Below, one piece after another: positions 15,029-56,008 of a DNA stretch of 64,000 nucleotides (its first letter is position 1; each line of letters starts with the position of its first letter). Both the position numbers and the translations under genes were made by a program. The stretch is taken from contig NZ_CP073117.1 in NCBI RefSeq assembly GCF_024205745.1, positions 1,612,001-1,676,000 on the forward strand. The letters are read 5' to 3'. The notes under the pieces were generated by a model, which did not search any database, was not told the DNA's origin, and was given only the letters and a program-made list of their open reading frames with translations. Origin of the DNA: Neisseria subflava (GTDB taxonomy: Bacteria > Pseudomonadota > Gammaproteobacteria > Burkholderiales > Neisseriaceae).

Positions 15029-16116
15029 ATGCCTTTATCCATAGATGAACAATTGTTGCCGCACCGCAATGCCATCGACAGCATCGATGCGGAAATCCTC
15101 CGTTTGCTCAACGAGCGCGCCGGTCATGCGCATGCTATCGGCGAATTGAAAGGGACGGGGCAGTTTACCGTCCTGAACGGGAAGTGGCCGTTTTACGCCG
15201 GATTCAGGATTTGAACCGCGGCCCCTTGCCTGATGAATCAGTTACTCGGCTGTTTCGCGAGATTATGAGCGAATGTTTGGCGGTGGAGCGTCCGCTGACG
15301 ATTGCCTATTTGGGCCCGAAGGGAACATTTACCCAGCAAGCCGCCATCAAACATTTCGGCCACGCCGCACACACTATGGCGTGTACCACCATCGACAACT
15401 GCTTCAAACAAGTTGAAACGCGCCAAGCCGATTATTTGGTGGCGCCTGTGGAAAACTCGACAGAAGGTTCGGTGGGTCGTACTTTGGACTTGCTGGCTGT
15501 AACTGCTTTAAAAGCCTGCGGCGAAGTGGTTGTCCGCATTCATCACAACCTGTTGCGTAAAGACAGCCACGAAATCGGCGGCATTACCAAAGTTTTCGCC
15601 CATGCCCAAGCCTTGGCGCAATGCAACGACTGGCTCGGCCGCAACCTGCCCAATGCCGAGCGTATCGCCGTGGCCAGCAATGCCGAAGCAGCGCGTTTGG
15701 TTGCCGAATCTGACAGCCCGAATGTGGCCGCCATTGCCGGACGTATCGCCGCGGAAATTTATCAATTGAGCTTTGCCGCCGAGTGTATCGAAGACGAACC
15801 GAACAACACCACGCGCTTCTTGGTGATGGGTCATCAAGAAACCGGCCGCAGCGGCAACGACAAAACTTCTTTGGTCGTATCCGCACCCAACCGTGCCGGT
15901 GCCGTTACTTCCTTGTTGCAACCTTTCACCGAGTTGGGCATTTCCATGACCAAATTTGAAAGCCGCCCAAGCAAATCGGTTTTGTGGGAATACCTGTTCT
16001 TCATCGATATCGAAGGCCATCAAAGCGATGAAAATGTCCAAAAAGCCTTGCAGCTTTTGGGCGAACGCGCTTCCTTCGTGAAAGTTGTCGGCTCTTATCC
16101 GATCGTTGTTTTGTAA
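15029..16116 (+). pseudogene. pheA: Chorismate mutase/prephenate dehydratase PheA, split by a frameshift
   Basis: PheA converts chorismate to phenylpyruvate for phenylalanine synthesis. Three parts are visible: the mutase domain (RNAIDSIDAEILRLLNERA near 11), the dehydratase domain (YLGPKGTFTQQAA and TTRFLVMG) and a C-terminal ACT regulatory domain (FESRPSK). The mutase frame runs into a stop after 61 codons. The rest continues in another frame. Reading that frame back gives AVYRPEREVAVLRRIQDLN, the normal continuation. The switch falls at GGGG (15157-15160), where one more G would restore a single ORF of 362 residues. As written the enzyme is broken in the mutase domain; a GTG at 15184 could start the dehydratase part alone. 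Confidence 0.88.
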
Positions 16117-16132
16117 GGATTATTGGGTATCA

Positions 16133-16162
16133 AAGGCCGTCTGAAAAGTTTTCAGACGGCCT
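16133..16162. terminator. Uptake-word hairpin after pheA
   Basis: A perfect inverted uptake-word pair lies 17 bases after the pheA stop. Confidence 0.8.
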
Positions 16163-16223
16163 AAATTATGTTTTCAATAGTTGCCATTTATGCAACATTA
16201 TTGGCAGATTAATGTCAGTAAGT

Positions 16224-16253
16224 TTGCATGATTGGAAATGAACACTCTATAAT
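16224..16253 (+). promoter_or_regulatory. Promoter for the rtcB2-prfH leader
   Basis: TTGCAT (16224-16229) and a perfect TATAAT (16248-16253) are separated by 18 bases. Transcription would begin near 16260, leaving an unusually long leader of about 250 bases before rtcB2. No sigma-54 motif or rtcR regulator gene is seen nearby. Confidence 0.7.
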
Positions 16254-16295
16254 CCGAACGTTTTTAATATTTTCATGCAAAGAAAGGAGCAAGCC

Positions 16296-16355
16296 ATGAC
16301 ACGTAATACTTCAATCCGCTCAATCACATTCTTTGCAGCCCAAGCGTCGGTCTGA
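16296..16355 (+). CDS. Leader ORF, 19 residues
   Basis: The reading frame MTRNTSIRSITFFAAQASV has a strong ribosome site (AAAGGAGC) 5-6 bases before its ATG, better than those of most genes here. It begins about 36 bases after the predicted transcription start and ends 158 bases before rtcB2. Its GCA GCC codons form one strand of a stem with downstream RNA. I do not recognise the peptide. Position, size and ribosome site suggest a translated leader peptide rather than a functional protein. Confidence 0.55.
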   Translation: MTRNTSIRSITFFAAQASV

Positions 16356-16402
16356 TTTTCGGATAACGCTTTTCGCATTCCATGTCGCCCGCTTCGGGCT
16401 GC
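16335..16402 (+). promoter_or_regulatory. Two competing stems in the rtcB2 leader RNA
   Basis: GCAGCCC inside the leader ORF (16335-16341) is a perfect complement of GGGCTGC (16396-16402). The same downstream strand also forms a tight local hairpin, GCCCG-CTT-CGGGC (16387-16399). The two cannot form together. Ribosomes on the last codons of the leader ORF would block the first stem. A third stem (CGTCTG/CAGACG, about 16434-16455) follows, made from a diverged uptake-word pair. No T run follows, so control of initiation or Rho access is as likely as classical attenuation. Confidence 0.4.
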
Positions 16403-16513
16403 TTTCCCTACGATTATCGGCTAGAAACCAGGTCGTCTGAACATTTCACAGACGGTGGATATTTATTGTCATCTGTTGTCGGTTTCTATCCGTTTTAAAG
16501 AAAGCATAAACAC

Positions 16514-17647
16514 ATGGGCAATTATCCCCATCATATTCAAATTATTGCCGATTCAAATACATGGATTGAAGGCAACGCTGTCGCACAGCTCGAAACCACC
16601 GCCCGATTACCGCATATGCTGCGCGTTGCCGGAATGCCGGATTTACACGCAGGGCGCGGTTATCCGGTTGGCGCGGCATTTTTCAGCGACCGTCATTTTT
16701 ATCCTGCCCTGATTGGGAACGACATCGGTTGCGGCATGGCGTTTTGGCAGACCGATTTACGTGCAGCCAAACTCAAACCGGCCAAACTCGCCAAACAGCT
16801 CGGCAACATCGATACTCCGCTAGATAAAGACGAACAGGTTGATTTGTTAGGCTACGCTGTCGATATGTTCCCATTTTCAGATGGCCTTGCCGTAGGTACG
16901 ATTGGCGGCGGCAACCATTTTGCCGAGTTGCAAACCGTTGATACTGTTTATCGCGCCGATCTGCTTCCTACAGATTTTGATGAAAACCATCTGCAACTAT
17001 TGGTGCATAGCGGTTCGCGCGGATTGGGCCAGCAGATTTTGCAACGCCAGATTGCCGCCTTCGGGCATCAAGGTTTGGCGGAAGAGGGCGAAGCGGCGGC
17101 AGCCTATCTTGCCGAACACCAAGCAGCCCTGGAATTTGCCGGACTTAACCGCCGTTTGATTGCGGCCAGAATGCTCGATCGTTGGCGCGCAGAAGGAACA
17201 TGCCTGCTCGATGTCCATCATAATTTTTTGGAACAAACCGAGATTGACGGCACAACCGGTTGGCTGCACCGAAAAGGTGCAACGCCCACCGATAAAGGCT
17301 TGGTCATGATACCCGGCTCGCGCGGCGATTACAGCTATCTGGTCCGACCTGCCGAAGACTGCCAAATTTCGTTGAATACCTTGGCTCACGGCGCAGGCCG
17401 GAAATGGCAGCGCGGCGAATGCAAAGGCAGGCTGTCGCACAAATACACTGCCGACAGCCTGCGCCAGACCGAATTTGGCAGCGTAGTCGTTTGTCAGGAT
17501 AAGGCCTTGATTTTTGAAGAAGCGCCACAGGCTTATAAAAGCATCGACAGCGTTATTGCCGCCATGAAAAACGCAGGTTTGATTGAATTGGTCGCGCGGT
17601 TCAAGCCTGTTTTGACTTATAAAACCGGTGGCGAGTGTGGAGTGTAA
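16514..17647 (+). CDS. RtcB-family RNA ligase of the PrfH-linked type (RtcB2)
   Basis: RtcB ligases join a 2',3'-cyclic phosphate or 3'-phosphate end to a 5'-OH, using GTP and manganese. Active-site features are visible: GNDIGCG near 73 (metal Asp/Cys), GGGNHFAE near 132, the HSGSRG block near 163, DVHHN near 234, and AHGAGRK with the histidine expected to be guanylylated near 293. At 377 residues it is shorter than canonical RtcB (about 400-480), as in the release-factor-H-coupled subfamily. prfH follows immediately; the pair is known to be linked to rescue and repair of ribosomes cut at the decoding centre. A long leader with its own promoter precedes it. Confidence 0.9.
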   Translation: MGNYPHHIQIIADSNTWIEGNAVAQLETTARLPHMLRVAGMPDLHAGRGYPVGAAFFSDRHFYPALIGNDIGCGMAFWQTDLRAAKLKPAKLAKQLGNIDTPLDKDEQVDLLGYAVDMFPFSDGLAVGTIGGGNHFAELQTVDTVYRADLLPTDFDENHLQLLVHSGSRGLGQQILQRQIAAFGHQGLAEEGEAAAAYLAEHQAALEFAGLNRRLIAARMLDRWRAEGTCLLDVHHNFLEQTEIDGTTGWLHRKGATPTDKGLVMIPGSRGDYSYLVRPAEDCQISLNTLAHGAGRKWQRGECKGRLSHKYTADSLRQTEFGSVVVCQDKALIFEEAPQAYKSIDSVIAAMKNAGLIELVARFKPVLTYKTGGECGV

Positions 17648-17649
17648 AG

Positions 17650-18288
17650 ATGAAACAGAATACACCATTGATTTATCTGCAAATTTCCACCGCGCAAGGG
17701 CCGGCAGAGTGCCGTATATTTGCCCGTTTCGTTTTGGGCAAGCTGCTTGCCGAAGCTCAAGTAAAAGGCATTGATGCCGAACTTGTTACTGAAACCGCCG
17801 ATAAGTACGGCATTTTGTCGGCAACGCTCAAATTGGAAGGGCAGAAAGCCGAAAGTTTGGCACAATCTTGGCAGGGGACGCTCCAATGGATATGCCCCAG
17901 CCCTATCCGCCCGAAACATCCGCGCAAAAATTGGTATATAGGTGTTTTCCGCTTGCCCGATATGCCGCAGATGTATGAAATGCCTTCTGAAAACGGAATC
18001 GAGTTTCAAACCTGCCGTTCGGGCGGTAAGGGTGGGCAACACGTCAATAAAACTGAAAGCGCCGTCCGTGCTACCCATAAAGAAAGCGGCATTTCCGTGC
18101 GGGTCGAGAGCGAACGCAGCCAGCACGCCAATAAAAAATTGGCGGTAATGTTATTGGCGCAAAAGCTGGCGGAGCATCATGCCGGACAAGCTGGAAGTTT
18201 TGCGCAGGAGCAGCACGCGCAACTCTATCAAGTTGAGCGCGGCAATCCGAAAAGGACGTTTGTCGGAGCGACGTTTAAGGAGAAATAA
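17650..18288 (+). CDS. prfH: Peptide chain release factor homologue PrfH
   Basis: PrfH is a release-factor-like protein that hydrolyses peptidyl-tRNA. It carries the catalytic GGQ loop (SGGKGGQHVNKTESAVR, near 125) followed by the basic domain 3. The N-terminal third is short and unlike RF1/RF2 domain 2, so stop-codon recognition in the usual way is not expected. ATG 17650 lies two bases after the rtcB2 stop; an in-frame start 15 bases earlier would overlap it. The tight coupling implies one message and joint action: release of the nascent chain, then RNA resealing. Confidence 0.9.
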   Translation: MKQNTPLIYLQISTAQGPAECRIFARFVLGKLLAEAQVKGIDAELVTETADKYGILSATLKLEGQKAESLAQSWQGTLQWICPSPIRPKHPRKNWYIGVFRLPDMPQMYEMPSENGIEFQTCRSGGKGGQHVNKTESAVRATHKESGISVRVESERSQHANKKLAVMLLAQKLAEHHAGQAGSFAQEQHAQLYQVERGNPKRTFVGATFKEK

Positions 18289-55413: not shown

Positions 55414-55459
55414 TTTTCCGACTATCTGAAAATATTTTTTTATTGAAAAGGAGAAAAAA

Positions 55460-56008
55460 ATGAAACTGAAAACCTTATTATTGCCCTTCGCCATGCTGGC
55501 CTTGTGTGCCAATGCGTTTGCCGCTACACCTAGCGATGAGTCGCTGGAGCGTTGGTTGGATACGCAGAATTTTGACCGGGAATTAGAAAAAAATATGATT
55601 GACGGTTTCAATGTTGGATTTAAACCGTATGCAGATAAAGCCCTTGCCAAAGTACCGGAAGCGAAAAAAGAGCAAATAGCAAAAGCTATTGACCGTTATC
55701 GCGAAAATGTTTTGAGAGATTTGATTACGCCCGAAGTGAAACAGACTATCCGCAATAATTTATTAAAGAACGCCAAATTAACATACACTCAAGAAGAAGT
55801 TAACGGCATGATTGCCTTTAATAGTTCACCTGTCGGGCAGGCTGTTGCTGTTAAGACTCCTCTTATGCTCAATCAAGCTATGAACGAACTAATGACTTTT
55901 GGATTGGCATTAACAGAGAAAGTTGCACAGCGTCATATGCCTGAATTTGCGAAAGAGATGCAAGGTATCATGTGCGGCGGCAAAAAAACTGATGCAAGCT
56001 GTAATTAA
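55460..56008 (+). CDS. DUF2059 exported protein
   Basis: A 182-residue protein with a cleavable signal (about 1-20, ANAFA) and a DUF2059-like helical domain (LTYTQEEVNGMIAFNSSPVGQ near 110). Two C-terminal cysteines (CGG...SCN) may form a disulfide in the periplasm. The role is unknown. It is a tandem paralogue of the preceding frameshifted gene, 46 bases upstream, and has a strong AAAGGAG ribosome site. Confidence 0.78.
   Translation: MKLKTLLLPFAMLALCANAFAATPSDESLERWLDTQNFDRELEKNMIDGFNVGFKPYADKALAKVPEAKKEQIAKAIDRYRENVLRDLITPEVKQTIRNNLLKNAKLTYTQEEVNGMIAFNSSPVGQAVAVKTPLMLNQAMNELMTFGLALTEKVAQRHMPEFAKEMQGIMCGGKKTDASCN

Follow-up and report, generated by a model that had tools for sequence, protein, structure and literature searches.

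In Pseudomonas aeruginosa, PA5471 (ArmZ) is an RtcB-like protein and PA5470 is prfH (PMC12057347, PMC3516279). According to the accessible text of these papers, translation of a 13-residue leader, PA5471.1, located ~250 bp upstream, is monitored, and transcription attenuation is the proposed output; the accessible text of PMC3884212 names translational attenuation instead. Stalling on this leader is linked to codons 3 (Gln) and 4 (Phe) and raises ArmZ (PMC13041342, in its available text). In the accessible parts of the open-access literature, no description of the leader outside P. aeruginosa was found. Here, we analyzed a short leader open reading frame (ORF) in front of an rtcB2-prfH operon in a 64,000-nucleotide stretch (the window) of the 2.21 Mb genome of Neisseria subflava (contig NZ_CP073117.1, positions 1,612,001–1,676,000). 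An initial annotation of the window had pointed out this leader, and it did not name the PA5471.1-armZ precedent.

The leader is probably the Neisseria member of the PA5471.1 type, a ribosome-dependent attenuator of the rtcB2-prfH (armZ-prfH) operon. Sequence comparison further suggests that this type of attenuator, so far known from one Pseudomonas gene, is the general leader of rtcB2-prfH. The best-supported parts of this reading are the ORF, its strong Shine-Dalgarno (SD) sequence, the conservation of the leader, the covariation of stem 2:3, and the conserved distance between segment 2 and the stop codon. The elements involved are as follows.

16275..16289, + strand: segment 1, ATGCAAAGAAAGGAG, which holds the leader SD and pairs with segment 2 (RNAfold, duplex calculation, 16S tail).
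16296..16355, + strand: leader ORF of 19 codons, MTRNTSIRSITFFAAQASV, read from the sequence.
16329..16346, + strand: segment 2, TTCTTTGCAGCCCAAGCG; its 5' part pairs with segment 1, and its GCAGCCC (16335–16341) and AAGCG pair with segment 3.
16387..16399, + strand: competing hairpin C:3, GCCCG-CTT-CGGGC, read from the sequence (−8.4 kcal/mol).
16390..16402, + strand: segment 3, CGCTTCGGGCTGC, the partner of segment 2 (−21.6 kcal/mol), with a covarying 7-bp core.
16400..16406, + strand: segment 3', TGCTTTC, which pairs with the rtcB2 ribosome site and has TGC in common with segment 3.
16499..16506, + strand: segment 4, AGAAAGCA, the rtcB2 SD (AGAAAG), partner of segment 3'.
16514..17647, + strand: rtcB2, RNA ligase of the RtcB family (release_rtcB; TIGR03073 and NF007153 above cut-off; PF01139).
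17650..18288, + strand: prfH, peptide chain release factor H (TIGR03072 above cut-off).

The ORF, the 158 bases between its end and rtcB2, and the identities of rtcB2 and prfH had all been given by the initial annotation, and the NCBIfam models agree with the latter. Its two stems were also recovered: GCAGCCC is perfectly complementary to GGGCTGC (16396–16402), GCCCG (16387–16391) pairs with CGGGC (16395–16399), and the two pairings exclude each other. Three elements are added here, namely stem 1:2 (duplex energy −15.2), stem 3':4, and the AAGCG/CGCTT extension, which widens stem 2:3 to GCAGCCCAAGCG:CGCTTCGGGCTGC and gives it −21.6 kcal/mol, compared with −8.4 for hairpin C. The fold of 16260–16520, which had been proposed as a check, has a z score of −2.68 and is equaled in 1 of 200 shuffles. 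The leader SD, AGAAAGGAG (16281–16289), makes a 9-base match to the 16S tail of this genome, CTCCTTTCT, assuming that the mature 16S extends to CTTTCT. Among the 74 window ORFs with 150 codons or more, not one has a match of this length; the SD of rtcB2 itself matches 6 bases of the tail. A scan of 16000–16700 against Rfam gave eight matches, every one far under the gathering score. The gap between segments 3 and 4 contains a stretch resembling a DNA uptake sequence (16430–16455), which matches many other sites in the genome.

Full-length rtcB2 is found in 13 of 46 Neisseria genomes, and the leader lies upstream in all 13. A DNA search matched 19 of the 46 genomes; the six beyond the 13 gave short stretches only, which for four of these six lay in the query's repeat portion. 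The blocks common to the 13 loci are GCAAAGAAAGGAG 5' of the start codon, CTTTGCAGC near the ORF end, and the GGGCTGCTTTC strand. In the alignment across Neisseria that the initial annotation had called for, the ORF and both stems are conserved. One further Neisseria genome (locus L051; L-numbers are labels of rtcB2 loci, and L038 is the window's own leader) has only a C-terminal rtcB2 fragment of 101 residues with 90% identity, perhaps a recent loss.

Beyond Neisseria, loci were taken from a protein search within the taxonomic order (300 genomes, nine new loci) and from a scan of a genome collection (best 80 of 578), and they span Beta- and Gammaproteobacteria. In the MG-start clade, own and other Neisseria loci included, a leader ORF with an SD precedes rtcB2 in 81 of 83 loci and prfH is present in 82; among deeper relatives the leader ORF is found in 0 of 17, though prfH is present in 11. 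The leader rule is mechanical and includes the motif, so that these figures are a test of presence and not a blind one; 2 of 72 window ORFs pass it (rtcB2 counted among the 72). L126, L128, L132, and L139 were placed in the deeper group by hand; since L126 starts with MG, the strict count is 81 of 84. L119 passes the rule and is doubtful, while L082 and L084 fall one point short although the ORF is present. The tallies leave out L059, whose contig starts at rtcB2, and L096 (N. wadsworthii, the same species as L045). Sorted by hand into groups of about genus rank, the loci with the leader before rtcB2 make up 49 such groups, loci without a genus label being mostly counted singly. Of 5426 E. coli genomes, 4244 contain 80% or more of a 651-base query spanning the leader and the start of rtcB2. 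An independent class sample (369 genomes) yielded five new rtcB loci. One of them, L143, has the leader, with a 15-nt perfect complement in stem 2:3 as judged by eye; no leader was found at L145, L146, or L148, and L147 has an ORF without clear stems. A covariance model built from 30 non-Neisseria leaders (R1) recognized 22 of 72 further loci at an expectation value (E) below 0.01.

Some observations concern the distribution of the genes themselves. A truncated ykfJ of E. coli is inducible by 4-azaleucine (PMC3516279, in its accessible text). In E. coli strain N3 (L161), the gene order is dinB-yafN-yafO-yafP-rtcB2-prfH-pepD, with yafO annotated as an mRNA interferase toxin. A Neisseriaceae metagenome-assembled genome (L133) carries a divergent rtcB-prfH pair without the MG start and without the leader, which suggests a separate acquisition. 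A search of phage sequences returned 407 records, none of which reached 60% identity; the ten listed comprise a short, unannotated record of a Salmonella phage with 56.5% identity and nine records with ~30%. Two plasmid searches returned 110 and 122 records, some of them chromosome-sized. Plasmid records of 56–174 kb from E. coli and Klebsiella were among these and carry a gene similar to RtcB2, at 54–62% identity.

The link to the described system is provided by L160, which comes from the genus of P. nitroreducens, where a search finds the leader at E ≤0.001 in 12 of 25 genomes. L160 (E 3.6e-4) encodes MIQFSTLCRLRLA, with 13 codons, Q3, F4, and C at nucleotides 7 and 12; it has 254 bp from ATG to ATG and a 2:3 duplex of −17.6 kcal/mol. 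We infer from this sequence that L160 is PA5471.1 of P. aeruginosa or its close kin. Because L160 agrees with the published features of PA5471.1 and carries the same leader, the window leader would belong to the PA5471.1 kind. Both have the same operon of an RtcB-like gene and prfH, a short ORF with an SD in front of it, and segment 2, CTTTGCAG, inside the ORF, pairing with a covarying downstream segment 3; ribosome-dependent control has been published, in the text accessible to us, for the P. aeruginosa leader. They differ in length (13 codons, compared with 16–19 in Neisseria), in the Neisseria core GCAGCCC:GGGCTGC, and in the segment 2 phase of the window clade. The published output of PA5471.1 is a terminator, whereas no terminator hairpin was seen in the window leader. 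Since none was found in the L160 gap either, we treat the terminator as a disputed detail of the model and not as a defining feature.

The covariation of stem 2:3 was measured in 48 of 70 leaders, chosen by hand to leave out near-duplicates and the divergent L106, L108, L109, L112, and L120. In the 7-bp core, 97.0% of the cells are paired (88.1% after shuffling), and double changes occur at five of the seven pairs, with 26 double-changed cells compared with 5.9 in shuffles. The covariation score of 0.297 (0.133 shuffled) was reached by none of 500 shuffles, and versions slid along the alignment have 20–51% paired cells and at most seven double-changed ones. Kinship among the sequences inflates the shuffle control, and the pair counts take in motif-bearing leaders, so that divergent ones (e.g., from Undibacterium, Burkholderia, and Hydrogenophaga) are outside them. 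The core reads GCAGCCC:GGGCTGC in Neisseria, GCAGGTC:GACCTGC in Pseudoalteromonas, GCAGGAC:GTCCTGC in Pseudomonas, and TCAGGCC:GGCCTGA in Xenorhabdus. The stem also covaries in a hand-chosen set of 30 leaders without Neisseria. The check for covariation suggested by the initial annotation thus gives a strong signal for this stem. In a swap test, a leader's own partner beat partners from other genera in 39 of 49 groups for stem 1:2, 39 for 2:3, and 33 for 3:4 (sign tests, 4e-5, 4e-5, and 0.02). Applied to the extension of stem 2:3 in seven Neisseriaceae leaders, the swap test gave a clear result only in L038, L042, and L046. Stem 1:2 is supported by conservation, by this swap test, and by the slid control (39–64% paired).

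Stem 3':4, which would close the rtcB2 ribosome site, is moderately supported. In 43 of 50 leaders, all non-Neisseria (L049, L056, L057, L108, L109, L112, and L120 being left out), 75.1% of the cells are paired, compared with 68.8% in shuffles and 20–46% in slid versions, and the covariation score is 0.185 (0.093 shuffled, reached by 0 of 500; at most 0.114 slid).

The geometry of the leader was examined in 70 leaders with at least six of eight matches to CTTTGCAG. The ORF has 13 or 14 codons in 49 of them. Segment 2 lies 16.7 nt before the stop codon, with a standard deviation (sd) of 2.1, and 26.8 nt after the ATG (sd 5.8, range 21–40 nt). A ribosome at the stop codon would therefore cover segment 2. 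The reading frame of segment 2 is variable, with phase 0 in 42 leaders, phase 2 in 25, and phase 1 in 3. Within Neisseria, where the ORFs have 16–19 codons, phase 2 occurs in seven loci and phase 0 in six: the segment 2 block reads TTC TTT GCA GCC in the window clade and CTT TGC AGC in other Neisseria species. The Neisseria peptides diverge after this block, but segment 2 stays 14–18 nt from the stop codon. This change of frame, with segment 2 and its spacing to the stop preserved, points to selection on the RNA and the ribosome position and not on the peptide. The expectation that the ORF would be conserved thus holds for RNA and ribosome position but not for the encoded peptide. The same facts bear on an ermC- or tnaC-like alternative, in which the leader would be a nascent-peptide arrest element that senses a drug or small molecule. 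Its conserved start and short ORF would suit such an element, but the change of frame between clades and within Neisseria gives different C-terminal peptides while the RNA and stop position stay the same, and we regard this explanation as very unlikely.

A possible mechanism emerges from folding the 70 leaders with a ribosome masked at successive positions and from the published behavior of PA5471.1; the assignment of the on and off states is inferred from these two sources. The masks and footprints are the analysts' choice, single-sequence folding is crude, and segment 3 is misplaced in L056, L057, and perhaps others. Placing the mask on the start codon raises the expected number of 2:3 pairs from 1.71 to 4.53 and lowers that of 3':4 pairs from 5.58 to 3.23; a mask on the stop codon gives 0.02 (segment 2 being masked by construction) and 5.72. 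Between the stop and the start mask, 3':4 drops by more than 0.3 pairs in 56 of 70 leaders and rises in one. In a codon-by-codon scan, the mean effect appears with the P site 5–8 codons before segment 2, and codons 3 and 4 of 13-codon leaders lie in or next to this predicted range; in L062, 2:3 is formed at P-site codons 1–4. On a leader free of ribosomes, stem 1:2 would form and segment 3' would occupy the rtcB2 ribosome site, leaving the operon off. An intact ribosome would reach the leader stop and cover segment 2, so that 3':4 would close again and the operon would remain off. A ribosome held where stem 1:2 is broken but GCAG is uncovered would leave segment 2 free; this segment would take segment 3, break hairpin C:3, and weaken 3':4, turning rtcB2 on. 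The rescue genes would thus probably be on when ribosomes start but cannot continue.

This scheme resembles ermC-type translational attenuators, in which 1:2 and 3:4 are the off pairings, 2:3 forms when a ribosome is held, and the target ribosome site lies in the last segment. The window leader differs in that it has no conserved arrest peptide, segment 1 holds the leader's own SD, and the expected trigger would be any slow or damaged ribosome. We do not assign it to the ermC type, given the unconserved peptide and differing phase (indirect evidence as to nascent-peptide arrest), though it may work alike. Attenuators of the trp/his/phe type likewise combine a leader ORF with alternative stems, but the window leader has no run of a single codon. 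Membership in the trp type was also rejected, as no U-tract terminator was found in the window leader.

Several results weigh against the attenuator reading or narrow it. The claim of the initial annotation that ribosome progress chooses between the stems agrees with the folds of 56 of 70 leaders but not with those of the window's own sequence: L038 shows no switch, with at most 0.3 pairs of 2:3 at every position, apparently owing to a competing local hairpin in the region of the leader stop. A switch is predicted for L042, L046, and L050 when the P site is at codon 1 or within codons 6–8, for L045 at codons 7–8, and for L102 (Conchiformibius) at codons 8–9; none of these five switches at codons 2–5, where 1:2 stays formed, so that the Neisseria folds open the switch at only some of the first ~8 codons. 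The mean unpaired fraction of the whole rtcB2 ribosome-site region is hardly altered (0.438 vs. 0.417). Stem 3':4 has 15 double-changed cells, compared with 5.2 in shuffles, but four of six slid versions have 16–22; its pair types in the 43 non-Neisseria leaders are not above shuffles, its pairing in Neisseria rests partly on the conserved SD, and it is not evident by eye in the PA5471.1-like locus. Stem 1:2 is paired in 89.1% of cells in 30 leaders, with covariation not above that expected from shuffles or column make-up. In an unanchored search, pairing at p ≤0.05 was found in 26, 34, and 18 of 83 leaders for 1:2, 2:3, and 3:4, most leaders being singly non-significant. The R1 model did not find the window leader, and among the 13 Neisseria loci it placed five correctly (L048, L050, L046, L045, and L047) with E of 0.02–0.3. 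Its best window match, 55437–55519 (E 0.00073), which is also its best place over the own genome (E 0.025), is the SD-ATG start of another ORF and was set aside as probably due to chance; the codons there (MKLKTLLLPF..) resemble the start of an exported protein. The slid controls of 3':4 and the narrow codon range in Neisseria reduce the confidence in this reading and in the damage-detector proposal discussed below.

The absence of a predicted switch in the window sequence would also suit a passive 5' region, with stems that do no switching and an ORF that serves only to bring in ribosomes or shield the mRNA, as would the rtcB2 gene's own SD with its 6-base match. However, stem 2:3, which competes with 1:2 and C:3 for bases, covaries strongly, and stalling-dependent control of the armZ leader has been published (in the text available to us); a passive role is therefore unlikely.

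The output would act mainly through the rtcB2 ribosome site, and the stem on this site offers an alternative to the terminator model. The main rival keeps the same sensing and takes the output to be an early stop of transcription, by Rho-dependent or intrinsic termination, between the leader and rtcB2. This is the published model for armZ in the accessible text, terminator-like gap sites occur in 12 of 70 leaders compared with 5.7 expected, and hairpin C:3 itself counts as terminator-like in L040, which is closely related to the window leader. On the other hand, no terminator-like site was found on the + strand at 16264–16513 of the window, in the gap of the PA5471.1-like L160, or in 58 of 70 leaders, and stem 3':4, which stops a few bases short of the rtcB2 ATG, lacks a U-tract; the scan addressed terminators of the intrinsic type. 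Given the lack of such sites in the L160 gap and the window leader, closure of the rtcB2 ribosome site is favored, and termination is a lesser possibility.

The transcription signals upstream of the leader are as follows.

16224..16253, + strand: promoter, −35 TTGCAT (16224–16229), 18-nt spacer, −10 TATAAT (16248–16253), read from the sequence.
16254..16260, + strand: GC-rich discriminator CCGAACG; relatives are GC-rich at the seven positions after the −10.

The promoter lies where the initial annotation had placed it, but calling it strong was generous: the −10 is a perfect consensus, while the −35 agrees with TTGACA at three of six positions, and a consensus promoter scan did not list it. 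In many relatives, the best −10 candidate ends 40–48 nt 5' of the leader ATG. In 82 leaders, the seven positions after this candidate have a GC fraction of 0.60–0.84, compared with 0.43 in the 75 nt around them; because the search used a fixed window, some of the −10 picks look wrong. Conservation of the −10 and a GC-rich discriminator among the leaders is moderately supported by these sequences. Such a discriminator is a trait of rRNA-like, growth-rate-controlled promoters. No sigma-54-like site at up to two mismatches lies in 16100–16513, in agreement with the initial annotation, and this speaks against sigma-54 control of the rtcR kind. A PADLOC search gave no match.

The initial annotation had also supposed a feedback of ribosome damage on the operon, and damage may indeed be the natural trigger. 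Protection of E. coli ATCC25922 against colicin E3 by the RtcB2-PrfH operon has been reported (PMC9223846). Ribosomes cleaved by colicin E3 initiate at ~75% of the control level, and essentially no peptide longer than ~8 residues is expected from them (PMC2615495; both papers as far as their text is accessible). A leader that reads the state of having initiated but halted early would fit this damage. Given an early halt within ~8 codons, a longer match to the 16S tail than in any of the 74 window ORFs, and a segment 2 located 21–40 nt from the ATG, a cleaved ribosome could be caught before segment 2. We therefore propose, tentatively, that the leader is a dedicated detector of ribosomes cleaved at the decoding center, forming a closed loop to the RtcB2 ligase and PrfH, and that it is ancestral in Beta- and Gammaproteobacteria and was later taken into efflux control in Pseudomonas.

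The presence of the leader before rtcB2 in 49 groups indicates that ribosome repair is probably the primary role of this control and drug efflux a secondary one. Such repair-first control would explain the induction of armZ by diverse ribosome inhibitors, and whether cleaved ribosomes induce their own repair becomes a testable question.
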